Positions 9,377 to 36,630 of a stretch of DNA of 47,493 nucleotides are shown here, one piece after another. The DNA lies in the NCBI GenBank assembly GCA_026195895.1, contig JAPHRO010000053.1, positions 1 through 47,493 of the forward strand, written 5' to 3'. This DNA comes from Gammaproteobacteria bacterium (lineage in GTDB: Bacteria; Pseudomonadota; Gammaproteobacteria; SZUA-229). The notes beneath the pieces are model-generated. The model had not been told where the DNA came from and did no database searches. It saw only the letters and a list, made by a program, of their open reading frames with translations. Made by a program: the position numbers and the translations under genes. How positions within the stretch are numbered: the stretch's first letter is position 1; each line of letters opens with the position of its first letter.

Positions 9377-10093
9377 ATGAATGACCAGGCATTATCGCTT
9401 TACATTACGACTGAACACCCCTGTGGTTATTACCAGGAGCGCAGTTCAGCCAATCTAATTCCAGACCCGCAACTGCCGATGAATGCTGGCCTGTATAGTC
9501 TGCTGGTCAGCCACGGTTTTCGCCGCAGTGGCGGTTTTGTTTATCGTCCCCATTGCCCCAGTTGCCAGGCCTGCATACCCTGTAGAATTGATGTGAGTTG
9601 CTTCAAACCCAACCGCAACCAGCGCCGCTGCCTGAAACGCAACAATGATCTTATAACCCGGGTACGCCCGGCGGACTATTGCGAAGAAGATTATGCGTTA
9701 TATGTTCGCTATATTAATAGTCGCCATGGTGATGGCAGCATGGCAAACCCCAGCCCTGATGATTATCGGAATTTCCTGCTCAGCGACTGGGGGCAAACCC
9801 TGTTTATCGAAACCCGACTGAACAACAAATTATTATCTATCGCGGTATCCGATCAATTGCAGGCAGGTCTTTCGGCGGTGTACACTTTTTTCGATCCCGC
9901 AGAAGAAAAACGCAGCCTGGGAACTTTCGCTATTTTGCAACAGATCTGGCTAGCACAGGTACATAAGCTGCCCCACGTATATCTCGGTTACTGGATAAAA
10001 AACCATCCTAAAATGGATTACAAAAAGAACTTCAATTCGCTGGAATTCTACTTAAATCAACTTTGGATAGATAAGCACCTGAGCGCTAAATAA
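9377..10093 (+). CDS. bpt: Aspartate/glutamate leucyltransferase
   Basis: A 238-residue protein of the arginyl-tRNA-protein transferase (ATE) family, bacterial Bpt branch. It transfers leucine from Leu-tRNA to N-terminal Asp or Glu, marking proteins for ClpS/ClpAP degradation (N-end rule). The N-terminal ATE domain shows CGYYQERS, and the Cys-rich segment YRPHCPSCQACIPCRI; the C-terminal GNAT-like domain has SAVYTFFDP and YLGYWIKN. The Leu rather than Arg specificity is inferred from the bacterial branch. Divergent from metH. Confidence 0.92.
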   Translation: MNDQALSLYITTEHPCGYYQERSSANLIPDPQLPMNAGLYSLLVSHGFRRSGGFVYRPHCPSCQACIPCRIDVSCFKPNRNQRRCLKRNNDLITRVRPADYCEEDYALYVRYINSRHGDGSMANPSPDDYRNFLLSDWGQTLFIETRLNNKLLSIAVSDQLQAGLSAVYTFFDPAEEKRSLGTFAILQQIWLAQVHKLPHVYLGYWIKNHPKMDYKKNFNSLEFYLNQLWIDKHLSAK

Positions 10094-29051: not shown

Positions 29052-30128
29052 ATGGACCAGATCAATAACCAGCAGCTACAGAACTTTCTCAAATTGTTTA
29101 GCGACAATCCCTATTATCAGGCCGCTATCGTAGTTCTGTTAGGTCTGGTCGCTTCGCGCATTATCAATGCCATATTCACCCGGATCATCTTGCGCATCGC
29201 CAACCAGACCCATAGCCGACTGGATAACCATATTATCCTGATTACCCGTCCGGCTCTGTTTTACAGCGTGCAACTGATTGCCCTGGCCATTGCCAATAAT
29301 ATTGTTTTCAGCAATCAGGCCGAGATCGTCATCTATTCGCTGCTGAAATCGGTAGCGGTGTTTGTCTGGACAGTATTTGCCATTCGTCTGGCAAGACTGA
29401 TATTGCGTACATTTAGTGCCACTCCCAATTACTTACCTGTTGTCAGTGTGCAAACTCTACCCCTGTTCGAAAACCTGGCGATTCTGGTCATTGCCAGTAC
29501 GGCGATTTATTTCCTGTTCAGCGCCTGGAATATCGACATGACTGCCTGGCTGGCTTCTGCCGGTATAGTCGGTATTGCGGTCGGTTTTGCCGCCAAGGAT
29601 ACCCTGGCCAATTTATTCGCCGGGGTTTTTATTCTCGCCGATGCACCCTATAAAATTGGCGACTATGTGGTACTGGATACCGGTGAACGGGGCGAAGTGA
29701 CCCACATCGGCATCCGCAGCACTCGCCTGCTCACTCGCGACGACGTTGAAGTCACCGTACCCAATTCCATTATGGGCAACACCAAAATCATTAATGAATC
29801 CGGTGGCCCCCACAAAAAATACCGTATCCGGCTGAAAGTAGGCGTTGCCTATGGCAGCGATATCGACCAGGTAAAACAGGTCTTGATGAATGTCGCTGAA
29901 AACGAATCCGGCATCTGCGCTGATCCCGAACCGCGCGTTCGGTTTAGAAACTTCGGCAATTCAGGCCTGGATTTCGAACTCCTCGGCTGGGTAGAAGAAC
30001 CCATGCTACGCGGTCGCATCCTGGATGCATTGAACAGCGATGTCTATAAACGCTTCCAGCAGGAAAACATTGAGATCCCCTACAGCAAACAGGATCTGTA
30101 TATTAAGTCGTTGCCTGAACCGAAATAA
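29052..30128 (+). CDS. Small-conductance mechanosensitive channel (MscS family)
   Basis: A 358-residue inner-membrane protein. About four N-terminal hydrophobic segments lead to the MscS pore helix and beta domain: GWLASAGIVGIAVGFAAKDT-type sequence around residues 168-190, then FILADAPYKIGDYVVL and VTVPNSIMGNTKIIN. Such channels open under membrane tension to release solutes during hypo-osmotic shock. It stands alone, divergent from gcvT and convergent with the tonB-like gene (7-base gap). Confidence 0.93.
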   Translation: MDQINNQQLQNFLKLFSDNPYYQAAIVVLLGLVASRIINAIFTRIILRIANQTHSRLDNHIILITRPALFYSVQLIALAIANNIVFSNQAEIVIYSLLKSVAVFVWTVFAIRLARLILRTFSATPNYLPVVSVQTLPLFENLAILVIASTAIYFLFSAWNIDMTAWLASAGIVGIAVGFAAKDTLANLFAGVFILADAPYKIGDYVVLDTGERGEVTHIGIRSTRLLTRDDVEVTVPNSIMGNTKIINESGGPHKKYRIRLKVGVAYGSDIDQVKQVLMNVAENESGICADPEPRVRFRNFGNSGLDFELLGWVEEPMLRGRILDALNSDVYKRFQQENIEIPYSKQDLYIKSLPEPK

Positions 30129-30135
30129 TTTTTAA

Positions 30136-31071
30136 TCAGGAAGGTAAAAATTCGATCGGGTAAGTGACGGTAATGGCCTCCACATCACGCGCGCCAAAGT
30201 TAAATAACTTGATGCGCCCCATCAGTCGTCTTTCCAGTTTCTTATCGTTTAACTCACTGGAAAGCATTTTAATATTACTGACCCTGCCTGATGGCTGGAT
30301 GGTTATTTCCAGTACAATTTTTCCTTTCAGCCCAGGATTTTTACGCCGCGCCTTATTGTAAATCGAATACAGTTTGCTTTTGTTTTTATCAAAGACGACG
30401 GTAACATCTTCTTCCATCCGCACACCCGCTGTACGTTTTTTATTTGTAGTCGTCTTTGATTTACTCTTATCTGCAACCAGCGTTTTATCCAGCCGGGTTG
30501 CCTGACGTTGCTGTAAACTGGTTTTATCAATTTGTTTACTAAGCCCCTGCGTGCTTACTCCACCACTGCCTTTACTAACATTAGATGCCAGTAACTGCTT
30601 GTTTACGGCTGTTTTTTGAGCAGTTATTTTGCCCGGTGATACTATTTTTGTACTCACCACTGCCGCTACTGAAGACGAATCCATCAACCCCGCCAGTTCA
30701 TCATTCAGGGCCAGCAAGCCACTGGTTTCAGCTTTTTGGCGCGCTTTTTTCTGCACTTTGGTTAATGGCTTTTTAACGACTGCTTTTTTCCTGGGCAGCT
30801 TTTTAACTTTTAACTTTGGTTTGGGCTTAGGTTTGGGCTCAACCACTTTTATCGGTGGCTTTGGTTTTTCACGCTGCATGACAAACTGCGCGATACGTTC
30901 GGGGACCGCCCGTGCCTGTCGTTCCTCTTTTGGCACATCAATACTGGATAAAACAATGCCCACCAGCAACATGACGACCAGAACTACAATCGCGATCAGG
31001 TTAAATCTGTGATCGCTGCTGCGTTCTGGTTTCCAGCCCAGGGCCAGATTTTCGTATGTTGCTACCGTCAT
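30136..31071 (-). CDS. AgmX/PglI-type TonB-like energy transducer
   Basis: A 311-residue bitopic protein: a short cytoplasmic start, one membrane helix (about 24-43), a Lys/Pro-rich periplasmic spacer (about 68-105), a Ser/Thr/Lys/Gln-rich low-complexity region, and a C-terminal domain (about 225-311) with GLKGKIVLEITIQPSGRVSN, LERRLMGRIKLFNF and ITVTYPIEFLPS, the AgmX/PglI C-terminal pattern, distantly TonB-like. It overlaps the upstream exbD by 4 bases and ends a four-gene ExbB-ExbD-ExbD-transducer operon. It should transmit proton-motive force across the periplasm; the outer-membrane partner is unknown. Confidence 0.85.
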   Translation of the reverse strand: MTVATYENLALGWKPERSSDHRFNLIAIVVLVVMLLVGIVLSSIDVPKEERQARAVPERIAQFVMQREKPKPPIKVVEPKPKPKPKLKVKKLPRKKAVVKKPLTKVQKKARQKAETSGLLALNDELAGLMDSSSVAAVVSTKIVSPGKITAQKTAVNKQLLASNVSKGSGGVSTQGLSKQIDKTSLQQRQATRLDKTLVADKSKSKTTTNKKRTAGVRMEEDVTVVFDKNKSKLYSIYNKARRKNPGLKGKIVLEITIQPSGRVSNIKMLSSELNDKKLERRLMGRIKLFNFGARDVEAITVTYPIEFLPS

Positions 31072-31574
31072 GAACCAGTGCCTTTTGACTTTTGCACAGC
31101 CGCAAATGCAATACGCGTGTAATTTGCCTGACGACAGGTAGACAGAATCTTTCTCAACAATTCATACGGCAGTTGCTCATCACCCATAATAGTGACGGCT
31201 CGACCCCTGGTTTTATCAGCCTGCGCCAGCATGCTTTTTGTCGATTGAAATTTGAGTTCCTTTTCCAGTCCTGGAATCAGCAATTCCTCGGAAGCCAGCA
31301 CCTGGTCAATAGCACCAACCTTTCGTCCCTGCACCAGAATATCTTTTGCGGTCACAGTAATTATTAATGTTTCTTTAGGTGCTTTTTTTGCAACCGACGT
31401 CGGCAAGTTAATATCTTTGCTACTCGGCAGGTTCTGTACACTGGATGAACTGACCAGAAGAAAAAATACCAGGATGGTAAAAATATCCATGAGTGAGACC
31501 AGATTCAGAGCTGGCTGTTTTCTGCGCGCATGATGCCTTTCCATGCGTCTGGCGCGACGCGACATTTTCATCAT
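31068..31574 (-). CDS. ExbD/TolR-family protein with intact channel Asp
   Basis: A 168-residue stator protein with a basic N-terminus, one transmembrane helix (about 24-44) and a periplasmic domain. The helix holds the conserved proton-path Asp (Asp30, in LVSLMDIFTILVFFLL). The periplasmic part ends in the TolR-like segment MGDEQLPYELLRKILSTC. It overlaps both neighbours by 4 bases. It should form the proton channel with the ExbB-like protein. Confidence 0.9.
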   Translation of the reverse strand: MMKMSRRARRMERHHARRKQPALNLVSLMDIFTILVFFLLVSSSSVQNLPSSKDINLPTSVAKKAPKETLIITVTAKDILVQGRKVGAIDQVLASEELLIPGLEKELKFQSTKSMLAQADKTRGRAVTIMGDEQLPYELLRKILSTCRQANYTRIAFAAVQKSKGTGS

Positions 31575-32101
31575 TCAACAGACTCCTGTGTTGAAGTCTG
31601 TTGCGCAGCGGCTAAATCTGGTGCATCACCGATAGAAATATTAGGAAACAATTCCACCGTCTCCAGTGTTGCCACTTGCACAATATCGGCACTACGCACA
31701 TGATCCATTACCTGGATCAAAGTTTTATAATTTATTTTTCGTTCCAGCAATAAGGTAATGCTTTGCTCGTCAGGAAAACGCGATTTTATTTCCACCATAA
31801 TATTAGTGAAATTTTTCCAGTTGGTGTCGTCGCCTTTTCGCTCGATACGTTTTATTAAACCCAGTCGCGCATCCTGAATATCAAAACTGTTTTCTCGAAT
31901 CACCATTTCCAGTTGCAGTTTAACTGTTTCCTGCTGCGCCGCTTTGGCGCCCGCCGGCGGCAGATTTAATTCGAGTACGGTAATACGAGAAAACACGGCG
32001 GTAATTAACAGGAACGGAACCAGTATCACCATTAAATTCATAAAGGCAGTGATATTAAGCTCGACAGCTTCCTGAATATATTTTCGTTTGACCAGTCGCA
32101 T
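31571..32101 (-). CDS. ExbD/TolR-family protein with Asn at the channel Asp position
   Basis: A 176-residue paralogue with one membrane helix (about 16-38) of the form LNITAFMNLMVILVPFLL. The position that is Asp in functional ExbD/TolR/MotB helices is Asn22 here, so it probably cannot carry protons itself. The periplasmic region is longer than usual, with a possible coiled stretch. It sits between exbB (27-base gap) and the second exbD (4-base overlap). A structural or regulatory role in a mixed stator is inferred. Confidence 0.85.
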   Translation of the reverse strand: MRLVKRKYIQEAVELNITAFMNLMVILVPFLLITAVFSRITVLELNLPPAGAKAAQQETVKLQLEMVIRENSFDIQDARLGLIKRIERKGDDTNWKNFTNIMVEIKSRFPDEQSITLLLERKINYKTLIQVMDHVRSADIVQVATLETVELFPNISIGDAPDLAAAQQTSTQESVE

Positions 32102-32128
32102 AATGACTCCCTGATGATTCGAAATTAT

Positions 32129-32749
32129 TTAGTCGTCTTTACTCATCAGGTTAAGGCATTTCACTGCGGCCATTTCAAGATTGTCAACCAGGCGCGCTGT
32201 TTTGGTCACCAGATAGGAATGCATTAGAATCATTGGAATTGCCGCCACCAGACCAAATGCCGTGGTGTTCATGGCAACAGAAATACTGGCTGAAAGTAAA
32301 TCAGCTTTTTCGGCAGGATCCGCACCCGCAACGGCGGTAAATGCCTGAATCAAACCAATAATGGTACCGAGCAAACCTAACAGCGTCGCAATATTGGCAA
32401 AGGTCGCCAGATAGTGAGTACGCTGTTCAAGTTCGGGCATGACTTCCATCATGCCTTCTTCCATGGCCGCTTCAATATCATCACGACGACGGGTTGCACC
32501 GATGCGGGCAAAGCCATAGTTCAGCATCAATGCCAGCGGTGTGGTGATGGATTCAGTAACCTGCATTGCCTGGGGATAATTATTATCTTTCAATAAAGGC
32601 ACCAGTTGCATCCAGATTTTTCGCGTGCGGCTTTGGGTGCGAGAAAGATAGAGAAAACGCTCGATAGAAATTGCAATCCCAAGTGCCAGAATAATCAGGA
32701 TGGGATACATGAACGGACCACCGGTCTGGAAAAAATTTACCACTTCCAT
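32129..32749 (-). CDS. ExbB/TolQ/MotA-family proton channel protein
   Basis: A 206-residue inner-membrane protein with three membrane helices: about 10-30, and a conserved pair at about 110-135 (FANIATLLGLLGTIIGLIQAF) and 155-180 (ISVAMNTTAFGLVAAIPMILM), the ExbB/TolQ signature. It is the first gene of the operon with two ExbD-like and one AgmX-like gene. The absence of pal, tolA or tolB nearby argues against the Tol-Pal system. Confidence 0.92.
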   Translation of the reverse strand: MEVVNFFQTGGPFMYPILIILALGIAISIERFLYLSRTQSRTRKIWMQLVPLLKDNNYPQAMQVTESITTPLALMLNYGFARIGATRRRDDIEAAMEEGMMEVMPELEQRTHYLATFANIATLLGLLGTIIGLIQAFTAVAGADPAEKADLLSASISVAMNTTAFGLVAAIPMILMHSYLVTKTARLVDNLEMAAVKCLNLMSKDD

Positions 32750-32854
32750 GAATTAACCCCTTTGGTATTTTTTAAATATGGTTTCGATATTGGCTATTGA
32801 TTGTAGCTTTGTGATGATGATGGGCAACCAGTTTTAACAGAAACTGTGTGCTAG

Positions 32855-34081
32855 TTACCAACCAGTACATTTGGCCAGCTCAGGCAGATCGCCTTCCAGG
32901 CCCATGGCATGACGCATAAATTTATGTTTGATCGGCCCTAGATTATTAATCAGATTGAGACCAAAATTTCTCACCATGCTGAGTTCGGCCCGGTCATTGC
33001 TGAATAAATTTTTAAATCCACTCATGCTGTACATCATCAACATGTTTTCGCCACGACGCCAGCGTTCGAATTTGCGTAACACCCCATAACTGGCAAAATC
33101 CTGTTTGTTCGAATCCGCATTGATAATAATTTGCGCCAGACTGGCCGCATCCAGTATACCCAGATTAACCCCCTGGCCCGCCAGTGGATGAATGGTATGA
33201 GCTGCATCACCAATCAGCGCCAGCCCCGGTTTAACATAGGCTTCTGCATGGCGACGAATTAATGGAAATGCCGCCCTTGGCCCGACCGACTCAACCGCAC
33301 CGAGCGTGTATTCAAATGCCTGTTCCAGTTTTCGACAGAAGGCTTCTTCATCCATGGCAACCAGCGCGTTGGCCTCATCATCCTGTGCTGACCAGACGAT
33401 CGAACAACGGCCATCACCCAGGGGTAAAAAAGCCAGCGGCCCTACCGGTAAAAATCGTTGCCATGCTGTATAGGCATGATGCCTGGTAGATTTAACCACG
33501 CAGACCACGCCTTTTTGATGATACGGAGCTGTTTCGAGATGAATGCCCGCCGCTTCTCGCACTCTGGAGCTGGCACCATCGGCGCCAATCAATAGCCGTG
33601 CATTGAGGCGGCGGCCGTCTTCCAGTTGTACGCTAGTACTGCCTTCGTGGTAATCAATAGTTGCCACTTTCGCCGGACATAGCCAGTCGATATTTTCTAT
33701 CTTATGTAACTGCTCTAACAGCGCCGCCTGGGTTACTTTATTTTCAACAATATGGCCCAGCGCATCAACACCGAGTTCAGCCGCATCAAAATGAATAACG
33801 CCTGACCCGGTTGAGTCCCATACGTGCATATGTTCATAGCCACTGACCCGACGCGCCTGCATCCCATCCCAGGCGCCCAGGTTGGTAAATACCTGTTGTG
33901 ATGCGCGTGAAATAGCCGAAACGCGTAATTCATAATCATCGTCAGGCTGGATATCACCCGGCTCAAGTGCTTCCACCACGGCAATTTTTAAATCTGTTTT
34001 TTGCCCTAGCGCACAGGCCAGAGTCAGGCCCACCATGCCACCACCAATGACGAGCACATCATAATTATTCCCATCGTTCAT
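32855..34081 (-). CDS. ubiI: FAD-dependent ubiquinone-biosynthesis hydroxylase (UbiI-like)
   Basis: A 408-residue flavoprotein monooxygenase of the UbiH/UbiF/UbiI group: Rossmann GGGMVGLTLACAL, ELRVSAISRASQQVF with NLGAWDGMQARRV, the GADGASSRVR motif and FAD ribose motif LIGDAAHTIHPLAGQG. It hydroxylates the aromatic ring of a ubiquinone precursor using oxygen; C5 (UbiI) is chosen from the pepP-ubiH-ubiI order, but UbiF or UbiM specificity is possible. It overlaps ubiH by 4 bases. Confidence 0.88.
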   Translation of the reverse strand: MNDGNNYDVLVIGGGMVGLTLACALGQKTDLKIAVVEALEPGDIQPDDDYELRVSAISRASQQVFTNLGAWDGMQARRVSGYEHMHVWDSTGSGVIHFDAAELGVDALGHIVENKVTQAALLEQLHKIENIDWLCPAKVATIDYHEGSTSVQLEDGRRLNARLLIGADGASSRVREAAGIHLETAPYHQKGVVCVVKSTRHHAYTAWQRFLPVGPLAFLPLGDGRCSIVWSAQDDEANALVAMDEEAFCRKLEQAFEYTLGAVESVGPRAAFPLIRRHAEAYVKPGLALIGDAAHTIHPLAGQGVNLGILDAASLAQIIINADSNKQDFASYGVLRKFERWRRGENMLMMYSMSGFKNLFSNDRAELSMVRNFGLNLINNLGPIKHKFMRHAMGLEGDLPELAKCTGW

Positions 34082-35325
34082 AGTGGAATCCTGCGCATCA
34101 TTTTACCCATACGACCTAGCAGGCCCATGCTTTGTCGCGCCATCAGATGTCTTAGCGATGGCAACAGGTCCAGCATAATCAATCCTGCTGCCCGCGCATG
34201 TGCTAAGGGTGTAAATTTATTTGAAAATATTTTCACTAATGTATCGGTTAATTGATAAACCCGCAGCATATCTTTGCGCCGACTGGCTTCATATTCTGCC
34301 AGCAACAAGGCATGCCCGGGATCATCCGCCGTGGCAATTAATTCTGCAATTTCAGCCGCGTCTCTTAAGGCCAGGTTATATCCCTGTCCCGAAACCGGAT
34401 GCAATGCATGGGCCGCATTACCAATAATGGCGACACGGCCTTTGACTAATTGTTCGGCTTCCACATAAGCCAACGGATAAGCATTACGTTTGCCCGCATG
34501 TAAAATATGCCCCAGGCGAAATCCAAAGCGTTGCTGCAACTGTGCAATAAAATTTTCATCGCTTAACGACATAATGTTTTCTGTTTCATCCGTATGAATC
34601 GTCCAGACAATGGTGCTGCGCTGCTGATTATCACTTGGCGTCATCGGTAAAAAGGCCAGTGGCCCAGATTCGGTAAACCGTTCATAAGCCACGCCATTGT
34701 GTGCATATTCGGTGGCCACATTGGCGATAATCGCCGACTGTTGATAGTCTTCGCGTTTCACACCCAGCCCGGTTAACTCACGGGTACGCGACATAGCGCC
34801 GTCTGCTGCAACGACTAATTTACAACTGACATTGTTTTGCTGACCCGCAATTTCTAAAACCAGCTGGGCAAAATTTTCATTCTGTTTTAGATCTTCAATA
34901 TGCGCCGGACATAGCCAGTCGATGTGTTTCAGTTGCTGTATGCGCTGCATTAATACGCGACCGATAATGCGATTTTCTGCGACGTAGCCCAGTGCTTCAA
35001 CATTTTCTTCCTGATGATTGATGCGCGTCGCTCCCAGATAACCACGGTCAGAAACATGAATATCTTTAATTGGTTCAATCAAAGGCTCAAGCTCTGCCCA
35101 CAATCCCATCGACTCCCAGATACGCCGGGAACCATAATTCAAAGCAATAACACGATCATCAAAACTGGGCTGCGTATCGGACTCAAATTCAAAAACCTCA
35201 ACGACAGCAATTTTTTTATCCGTTTGACTGGCTAAAGCACAGGCAAGACTGGCGCCCACCATGCCACCACCGATGATAACCACATCGTAATCAACTGAAT
35301 CAATACTGTTTTGCTGTTCGCTCAT
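34078..35325 (-). CDS. ubiH: 2-octaprenyl-6-methoxyphenol hydroxylase
   Basis: A 415-residue flavoprotein monooxygenase for a ring hydroxylation of ubiquinone synthesis. It has GGGMVGASLACAL, DDRVIALNYGSRRIWESMGLW, AADGAMSRTR and IIGNAAHALHPVSGQGYN (Asn in place of Asp, as also in E. coli UbiH), supporting UbiH rather than UbiI. It begins 3 bases after pepP and overlaps the next flavoprotein, forming a tight pepP-ubiH-ubiI operon. Confidence 0.93.
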   Translation of the reverse strand: MSEQQNSIDSVDYDVVIIGGGMVGASLACALASQTDKKIAVVEVFEFESDTQPSFDDRVIALNYGSRRIWESMGLWAELEPLIEPIKDIHVSDRGYLGATRINHQEENVEALGYVAENRIIGRVLMQRIQQLKHIDWLCPAHIEDLKQNENFAQLVLEIAGQQNNVSCKLVVAADGAMSRTRELTGLGVKREDYQQSAIIANVATEYAHNGVAYERFTESGPLAFLPMTPSDNQQRSTIVWTIHTDETENIMSLSDENFIAQLQQRFGFRLGHILHAGKRNAYPLAYVEAEQLVKGRVAIIGNAAHALHPVSGQGYNLALRDAAEIAELIATADDPGHALLLAEYEASRRKDMLRVYQLTDTLVKIFSNKFTPLAHARAAGLIMLDLLPSLRHLMARQSMGLLGRMGKMMRRIPL

Positions 35326-35328
35326 AAA

Positions 35329-36630
35329 TCAGGATGCCATTAAGGCTTCTATTTCTTCCGTCGTTTTTGGCAGGGAGTCAGTCAACACTTCATGACCATC
35401 TTTCGTCACCACCACATCATCTTCGATGCGCACACCTATATCCCACCAGCGTTTCGCGCCGCGACTGCCATGGGGAATATACAGGCCAGGCTCAATGGTT
35501 AACACCATACCCGGTTCCAGCAAACGCCATTCTTCATCGACTTTGTAGTCGCCGACATCATGCACGTCCATCCCCAGCCAGTGACCGGTGCGATGCATGT
35601 AATATTTTTTGTAGGCCTCTTCCTTGATTAATTTTGCCACTGTACCTTTTAACAGGCCCAGCTCCACCATACCTTTAGTTAAGGTTTTAACCGCCGCATG
35701 ATGAGGATCATTCCAGTGATTTCCCGGCTTCACCTGTTTGATGGCATCCAGGTTGGCCTGCACCACCAGATCAAAGATTTCCTTTTGTGCTGGGGTATAT
35801 TTTCCATTCACCGGAAAGGCCCGGGTAATATCCGCATCGTAGCCCTGGTATTCAGCGCCAGCATCGATCAACACCAGATCACCATCTTTTAAAACCTGAT
35901 TATTCTCGGTGTAATGCAAAATACAGGTATTGGCGCCACCGCCCACAATACTGGGATAGGCCCAGGTTGCGCCATTGAACTGGAACTCGTGCAAAATTTC
36001 TGCATCCAGTTGATATTCATACATCCCCGGTTTGCATATTTTCATCGCTCGCTTGTGTGCTTCGACTGAAATTTTCGCCGCCTTTTTCATCAGCCGTAAT
36101 TCATCACGGCTCTTGAACAATCGCATGTCATGTAACAAATAGTCGAGGGAGACAAACTCGTAGGGCACATGCCCGCCAGAACGCGACTGATTACGCAAGC
36201 TATTGACCCAGTCCATGACGCGCTTATCAAAATTGGGATCCAGCCCCATGGTGTAATAAACTCGTTCCGAATGCTCAAGTAACCCCGGCAAGATATCGTC
36301 GATATCCTCAATGGGAAAGGCATCGTCAGCTAAATACTGGCTTTTGGCACATTCAGGGCCACAACGCCGACCATGCCAGATTTCCTGTTCCAGATCCTTG
36401 TCGCGACAAAATAAAATATACTCACCCTGCGCACGGCCGGGCACCAGTACAACCACGCCCTCAGGCTCGGGAAATCCGCTCAGGTAAAAAAAATCGCTAT
36501 CCTGCCTGAACGGGTAATCCACATCGCGATTTCTGGTTCTGACGGGAGTTGAAGGCAATATAGCGATGCCACCAGCACCGACCATACGCATCAGTTGTTT
36601 ACGATGTCTGGCGTGAATTTTTGGATTCAT
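35329..36630 (-). CDS. pepP: Xaa-Pro aminopeptidase
   Basis: A 433-residue M24-family metallopeptidase that removes the N-terminal residue from Xaa-Pro peptides. The dinuclear Mn site ligands are visible: LIDAGAEYQGYDADITRAF (two Asp), HRTGHWLGMDVHD (His), LTIEPGLYI (Glu) and GVRIEDDV (Glu). The N-terminal domain has YPFRQDSDFFYLSGFPEPE. An AGGA ribosome binding site precedes it. It follows ygfB by 55 bases. Confidence 0.97.
   Translation of the reverse strand: MNPKIHARHRKQLMRMVGAGGIAILPSTPVRTRNRDVDYPFRQDSDFFYLSGFPEPEGVVVLVPGRAQGEYILFCRDKDLEQEIWHGRRCGPECAKSQYLADDAFPIEDIDDILPGLLEHSERVYYTMGLDPNFDKRVMDWVNSLRNQSRSGGHVPYEFVSLDYLLHDMRLFKSRDELRLMKKAAKISVEAHKRAMKICKPGMYEYQLDAEILHEFQFNGATWAYPSIVGGGANTCILHYTENNQVLKDGDLVLIDAGAEYQGYDADITRAFPVNGKYTPAQKEIFDLVVQANLDAIKQVKPGNHWNDPHHAAVKTLTKGMVELGLLKGTVAKLIKEEAYKKYYMHRTGHWLGMDVHDVGDYKVDEEWRLLEPGMVLTIEPGLYIPHGSRGAKRWWDIGVRIEDDVVVTKDGHEVLTDSLPKTTEEIEALMAS

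Follow-up and report, generated by a model that had tools for sequence, protein, structure and literature searches.

The 47,493-nucleotide stretch of gammaproteobacterial DNA analyzed here, called the window throughout, carries on its minus strand a four-gene operon (positions 30136 to 32749) encoding one ExbB-like protein, two ExbD-like rod proteins (ExbD1 and ExbD2), and a TonB-like transducer. The channel aspartate is kept in ExbD2 and is replaced by asparagine in ExbD1. We found this Asn/Asp pair to be nearly constant among relatives of the operon, which is a member of the gammaproteobacterial Agl-Glt core complex family, and we found that the window copy falls within a clade of that family whose members lie mostly in gene clusters of the type VI secretion system (T6SS). 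The best reading of these results, which we hold with modest confidence, is a motor of the composition ExbB5-ExbD1-ExbD2 that has one proton site and is coupled to T6SS control.

Conservation of the Asn/Asp pair

ExbD1 (176 residues, 31571 to 32101, PF02472 at 1.5e-15) has Asn22 at the channel position, as placed by alignments and by direct reading of its codon (AAT, 32036 to 32038, in the motif FMNLM), and ExbD2 (168 residues, 31068 to 31574, PF02472 at 4.9e-19) has Asp30 (GAT, 31485 to 31487, in LMDIF, likewise read directly). Because it matches PF02472 and its AlphaFold2 model shows a single long helix (residues 15 to 45) with a confident periplasmic domain, ExbD1 is an intact, well-preserved protein of the ExbD type and not a relic. 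Its C-terminal motif is LFPxISIGDAP, and its helix from N16 to S38 contains no acidic residue that could replace the missing aspartate. A Foldseek search with the model, a single chain like all structure models used here, returned no match at E ≤ 0.001, TolR (5by4) standing at rank 4 with a probability of 1.00.

According to the preliminary description of the operon, the Asn would be a local mutation if first ExbD proteins in orthologous operons usually carried Asp. Asn proved to be kept across the class, much more often than chance would give: among the 166 distinct ExbD1 sequences it occurs 164 times and Asp only twice; the channel site of ExbD2 is Asp in all 164 distinct sequences, and so is that of ordinary ExbD/TolR proteins (33/33). 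Among 13 further ExbD1 proteins from a phylum-wide sample, all of the same class, 12 have Asn, 1 has Ser, and none has Asp. The pairing recurs in all 30 operons read from relatives and in a second four-gene set of the window's own genome (contig C81), where the first rod has Asn (FLNLM) and the second Asp. ExbD1 codons at the site were AAC (83), AAT (66), and GAT (1), an Asn codon being one transition away from Asp. The scan of GTDB genomes that yielded 80 of at least 553 loci was biased, as one of its two search patterns included the Asn; to counter that bias, 276 gammaproteobacterial genomes were also searched with a profile and the resulting loci read, full-length family members scoring at least 139 bits and the next matches at most 72. 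The two Asp-bearing ExbD1 proteins (L066, 8001 to 8570; L225, 8043 to 8552) are scattered on the tree, and for this reason Asn looks ancestral in ExbD1. In L066 the ExbD1 stretch VPFLL has become ICFLL, and the ExbD2 helix of L225, MIDMLMIMVVYLL, is unusual. The ExbD1 of L304 has serine at the channel position (FMSLM), which shows that selection may favor neutrality at this site and not Asn as such.

In every operon read, the two rod genes stand side by side with one ExbB gene, and their translation is usually coupled. The ExbD1 transmembrane (TM) helix near the Asn (N22, L23, M24, V25, L27, and F30 to L32) is 97 to 99% conserved, at least equal to ExbD2. Natural ExbD1-ExbD2 fusions were considered as proof of a heterodimer and rejected, the long open frames being read-through or overlapping frames.

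The pentamer subunit and the transducer also depart from the ordinary pattern. ExbB Thr129 and Thr163, which form the pore threonine rings, are present in 100% of about 150 family operons and align with threonines of ordinary ExbB/TolQ. At the TM3 position where three ordinary ExbB/TolQ proteins encoded by this genome have Glu, the window ExbB has Val158 (Val in 95%); its kink proline position is Thr122 (Thr in 99%), and new polar residues (Asn119, Asn161, Ser153, and Ser155) are fixed at 99%. We take Thr129, Thr163, Val158, and Thr122 to correspond by position to E. coli ExbB Thr148, Thr181, Glu176, and Pro141. The SHLS motif of the TonB/TolA TM helix was found in none of 179 family transducers. 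Since the Glu and the kink proline are lost, new polar residues are fixed, and SHLS is absent, the whole proton pathway is a variant and not an ordinary motor with a single odd residue.

A clade within type VI secretion clusters

The core complex of aglR, aglQ, aglS, gltC, gltD, gltE, and gltG was described by Luciano et al. in 2011 as the origin from which the Myxococcus Agl-Glt gliding machine grew; in gammaproteobacteria its genes are clustered, together with one extra gene that is absent in myxobacteria, and its function there is unknown (PMC3169522). The link to gliding that had been drawn from the AgmX-type protein was right and already published (PMC3169522), and the Agl-Glt core complex itself is already known. 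Almost without exception, family loci read [barrel]-TPRd-TPRb-TPRa-TPRc-c7-ExbB-ExbD1-ExbD2-TonB-like, and about 95 sampled loci of the wider family are linked to these tetratricopeptide repeat (TPR) genes and not to a T6SS. The TPR genes are taken for GltC/D/E-like by gene order and PMC3169522, profile matches being weak (GltE 35.8 bits, cut-off 225). The window operon contains the aglR-aglQ-aglS-like genes and a gene for a GltG-like protein with an AgmX/PglI C terminus; it has no GltC/D/E-like TPR genes beside it, which nearly all other family members have.

In a tree of 143 operons built from ExbB, ExbD1, and ExbD2 (548 columns), the window operon belongs to one clade of 45 (SH-aLRT 95) nested within the TPR-linked family. 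Besides the window operon, the clade comprises 34 T6SS-linked operons, 7 linked to a kinase only, and 3 truncated at contig ends; T6SS clusters thus hold 34 of the 44 other members, the rest being mostly contig-cut or kinase-linked. Directly upstream of the motor operon, T6SS-linked members have genes for TssM, TagF (TIGR03373), a PP2C phosphatase (NF033484, Stp1), and a PpkA-like kinase in which a Ser/Thr kinase domain is fused to an FGE-sulfatase-type domain (PF00069 and PF03781). This FGE-domain kinase is the commonest direct neighbor in the clade; TagR likewise has a PF03781 domain. In G004, one arm of the cluster runs Fha-TssJ-TssK-TssL-TssM-TagF-PP2C-kinase-ExbB-ExbD1-ExbD2-TonB-like; the opposite arm, as judged by gene order, runs TssA-B-C-C2-E-F-G-ClpV...TPRb-TPRa-TPRc. 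The TPRb-TPRa-TPRc block lies at the far end of the T6SS cluster in all four clusters read further (G004, G015, G105, and G149). Because motor genes and TPR block both lie inside T6SS clusters, the whole core complex is built into the T6SS cluster. The driven machine, given as unknown in the preliminary description, can thereby be narrowed, since the window's clade is tied to T6SS clusters in at least 34 of 45 operons; the T6SS itself is still a candidate for that machine. No link of ExbD/AglRQS-type motors to the T6SS was found in the open-licence papers searched.

Other arrangements were also seen. In L056, L057, and L060 (and L040), TPRb-TPRa is divergent from kinase-ExbB-ExbD1-ExbD2-TonB with no adjacent T6SS genes, an intermediate arrangement, and in a genome that is 68% complete (L245/L260, G031:C131) a T6SS cluster has the kinase and TPRb-TPRa-c7 with no ExbB-ExbD-ExbD-TonB after the kinase. 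Two-partner secretion genes turn up repeatedly close to the FGE kinase or to T6SS-linked operons (L159, 11382 to 18708; L245, 16393 to 18264; L058, 14724 to 16480; L079; L083). Judged by eye, they encode an exoprotein resembling filamentous haemagglutinin or the transporter of such a protein, a possible surface cargo of the machine.

The window's genome has T6SS genes on other contigs: Fha, TssA, B, C, C2, E, F, G, and ClpV (H) on C83, TssJ, K, L, M, TagF, and the start of PP2C on C48, and the FGE-domain kinase alone on C42. This T6SS is a more divergent relative of that of the clade. Besides the window operon, the genome carries on C81 a second full core-complex operon with the Asn/Asp pair (TPRd-TPRb-TPRa-TPRc-c7-ExbB-ExbD1-ExbD2-TonB-like; L120, G000:C81:1-18000; L006/L007) and on C40 a third Glt-type block, TPRd-TPRb-TPRa-TPRc-c7, at 9931 to 15606 of L258 (G000:C40:34000-49847), where the contig ends at the expected ExbB; a response regulator and a sensor kinase lie just upstream of the C40 block. 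In 37 genomes of the same family, TssM was present in 8/8 carriers of the clade ExbD1 versus 1/29 noncarriers (hypergeometric 2.3e-7 with genomes taken as independent, which they are not, 5 of the 8 carriers sharing a genus), and in genera g10 and g11 carriers and noncarriers differ in motor and TssM together. Across a sample of the class, TssM was found in 6/6 carriers against 78 of 370 genomes overall (21%). The genomes of four kinase-only operons (L043, L056, L057, and L060) and of the contig-cut L038 have TssM; carriers without it (L040, L041, L042/L050, and L055) are metagenome-bin genomes of 2.2 to 3.0 Mb.

A proposed one-site motor and its alternatives

An Asn/Asp pair with half the proton sites is the natural reading because the Asn is class-wide and the adjacent pairing is nearly constant. 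Since one Asp rod, one Asn rod, and one ExbB are conserved together, we suggest that the ExbB pentamer would surround two different rods, ExbD1 and ExbD2, in a proton motor of the inner membrane like ExbBD, TolQR, and MotAB. In such a motor ExbD2 alone would load and unload protons, and ExbD1 could act as a permanently protonated, neutral rod, because Asn is the classical mimic of protonated Asp, as in MotB D22N (PMC9389320). Current rotary models of ExbBD, TolQR, and MotAB have two alternating aspartates and a step of 36 degrees per proton (PMC12215075, which also names the threonines and the proline of E. coli ExbB); rotation here, if any, would be 72 degrees per proton, or the motor might be a one-stroke switch. 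The GltG/TonB-like transducer would cross the periplasm and pass the movement to the TPR and outer-membrane partners. In the T6SS clade the motor would be an envelope module of the T6SS, most likely one that detects contact or force at the envelope or relays it to the PpkA-like FGE (TagR-like) kinase and then to T6SS assembly. PpkA starts T6SS assembly (reviewed in PMC10482370), and this link would be the simplest because the kinase, a PpkA homolog, is the constant neighbor in the T6SS branch. In the window's genome the motor would act on the T6SS in trans. More tentatively, we speculate that the complex has been a one-site rotary proton motor since its origin and that in one clade it became a T6SS force generator or sensor, which would use proton energy to read tension or contact in the envelope and so set the place and time of assembly.

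Several points weigh against the one-site motor coupled to the T6SS. We infer the ExbD1-ExbD2 heterodimer within one ExbB pentamer, and Asp has been regained in L066 and L225, so that a version with two Asp is workable in at least some cases. Direct-coupling analysis was noisy, with about 105 effective sequences and unconvincing top within-protein pairs, the ExbD1-ExbD2 couplings being about 2.6 times as dense as those of ExbB-ExbD. The window operon has no T6SS genes beside it, the TssM of its own genome scores 692 against about 1600 bits on the clade model, with TagF also lower, and the co-occurrence partly reflects shared ancestry, given the one genus of 5 of the 8 carriers. GltCDE-like genes stand in the ordinary arrangement on C81 and C40, and the window motor may serve those.

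This last point leads to a possible, if doubtful, alternative, that the window copy has no T6SS role and is a stand-alone Agl-Glt motor for the TPR/outer-membrane proteins of C40 or C81 with an unspecified envelope task. It fits the TPR linkage of the wider family, the C40 block that ends at the contig end, and the distance of the window operon from T6SS genes. By sequence, however, the window copy lies inside the T6SS clade, carriage tracks TssM within the same family even when unlinked, C81 is already provided with motor genes, and those of C40 were probably lost where the contig ends.

Somewhat less probable is a motor formed by an ExbD2 homodimer, with ExbD1 as a separate nonconducting subunit (decoy, regulator, or peptidoglycan anchor) off the proton path. 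All characterized ExbD/TolR/MotB motors are homodimeric (PMC12215075, PMC9389320), whether AglQ and AglS form homo- or heterodimers is unknown (PMC9389320), and Asn disables known stators, Asp28 of Myxococcus AglQ being essential and D28N inactive (PMC3858216). Conservation of the ExbD1 helix near the Asn nevertheless fits a helix packed in the pore, and the constant adjacency of the two rod genes, usually translationally coupled and with one ExbB, also speaks against a separate subunit.

We consider it unlikely that the complex is a proton-gated or structural sensor and not a motor, one that would leak, or switch a single time, and pass a signal to the kinase. The single Asp, the changes of the ExbB Glu to Val and of the kink proline to Thr, the loss of SHLS in all 179 transducers, and the frequency of the FGE-domain kinase as direct neighbor would suit such a sensor. 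On the other side, neither threonine ring varies, nor does the ExbD2 Asp, the transducer retains a TonB-type domain, and the related AglRQS moves and requires its Asp (PMC3858216, PMC9120999). The idea that the gene is dying and its Asn a local mutation or an error of sequencing has a negligible probability, as nothing was found for it and it is ruled out by the 164/166 Asn across the class and the second Asn copy in the same genome.

Operon organization and relation to known systems

Open reading frames and codons bore out the four packed genes, their strand, and the Asn22/Asp30 difference as first described. The ExbB/TolQ/AglR-like pentamer subunit (206 residues, 32129 to 32749, PF01618 at 6.7e-28) is followed after 27 bp by ExbD1, and both following junctions overlap by 4 bp; PF01618 once and PF02472 twice, all above cut-off, make up the parts of an ion-driven motor. 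The GltG-like transducer (311 residues, 30136 to 31071) has a membrane helix (residues 19 to 43, also in its AlphaFold2 model), a Pro/Lys-rich linker, and a TonB-type C-terminal domain (residues 220 to 308, 30148 to 30414), assigned by profiles, model, and structure matches to the TonB/TolA fold and the AgmX/PglI subfamily. It scores 69.5 bits on NF033768 (AgmX/PglI C-terminal, NCBIfam; cut-off 40) and 31.9 bits on TIGR01352 (TonB C-terminal; cut-off 27.1), with a weak match to PF03544 (Pfam); the domain is modeled at a pLDDT of about 95, and its top PDB matches are TonB C-terminal domains (VIA-align Z 8.6). A promoter scan gave no more matches than chance.

The motor operon and an MscS gene lie between a ubiI-type hydroxylase gene and gcvT (29052 to 36630), interrupting the housekeeping run pepP-ubiH-ubiI-gcvT-gcvH-gcvP, which is contiguous in E. 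coli; the ubiI-gcvT gap is probably the insertion point of a moved module. As had been noted, no TonB receptor, Pal, or TolB is near the operon, its neighbors being gcvT/H/P, MscS, ubiI/ubiH-type genes, and pepP.

An Asn fixed in one rod, one transition from Asp, together with the lost ExbB Glu, offers a natural test of models in which two aspartates alternate. The T6SS link puts forward a candidate machine for a complex that has been an orphan in gammaproteobacteria since its description in 2011. It also points to a proton-driven module in the envelope part of some T6SSs, of which no account was found in the open-licence literature searched.

Among known systems, the threonine phosphorylation pathway of the T6SS comprises PpkA, PppA, Fha, and TagF, with TagQRST in Pseudomonas aeruginosa and RtkS in Serratia (PMC10482370). 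The clade clusters share the gene set of TagF, PP2C phosphatase, Ser/Thr kinase, and Fha and differ in having a proton motor operon after the kinase; TagQ, TagS, and TagT were not recognized among the genes read in the G004 cluster, in a search that was not exhaustive. With ExbBD-TonB and TolQR-TolA the window system has in common an ExbB with two threonine rings, the ExbD2 Asp, and a TonB-type C-terminal domain, whereas it has two unlike rods with one Asp, no ExbB TM3 Glu, no SHLS, and no TonB receptor, Pal, or TolB nearby. Compared with the 5:2 motors ExbBD, TolQR, and MotAB, the channel Asp is in one rod only, giving half the sites. In composition the window system resembles the Agl-Glt core complex, which also has one ExbB-like protein, two ExbD-like proteins, and an AgmX/PglI-type transducer; the window copy differs in having no adjacent TPR genes, and its clade lies in T6SS clusters, which are absent from the 2011 core-complex text (PMC3169522). 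The conserved Asp is said to be present in Myxococcus AglQ as well as in AglS (PMC9389320), and thus, by published description, the Myxococcus pair has Asp in both rods, in contrast to Asn22 in the window ExbD1.

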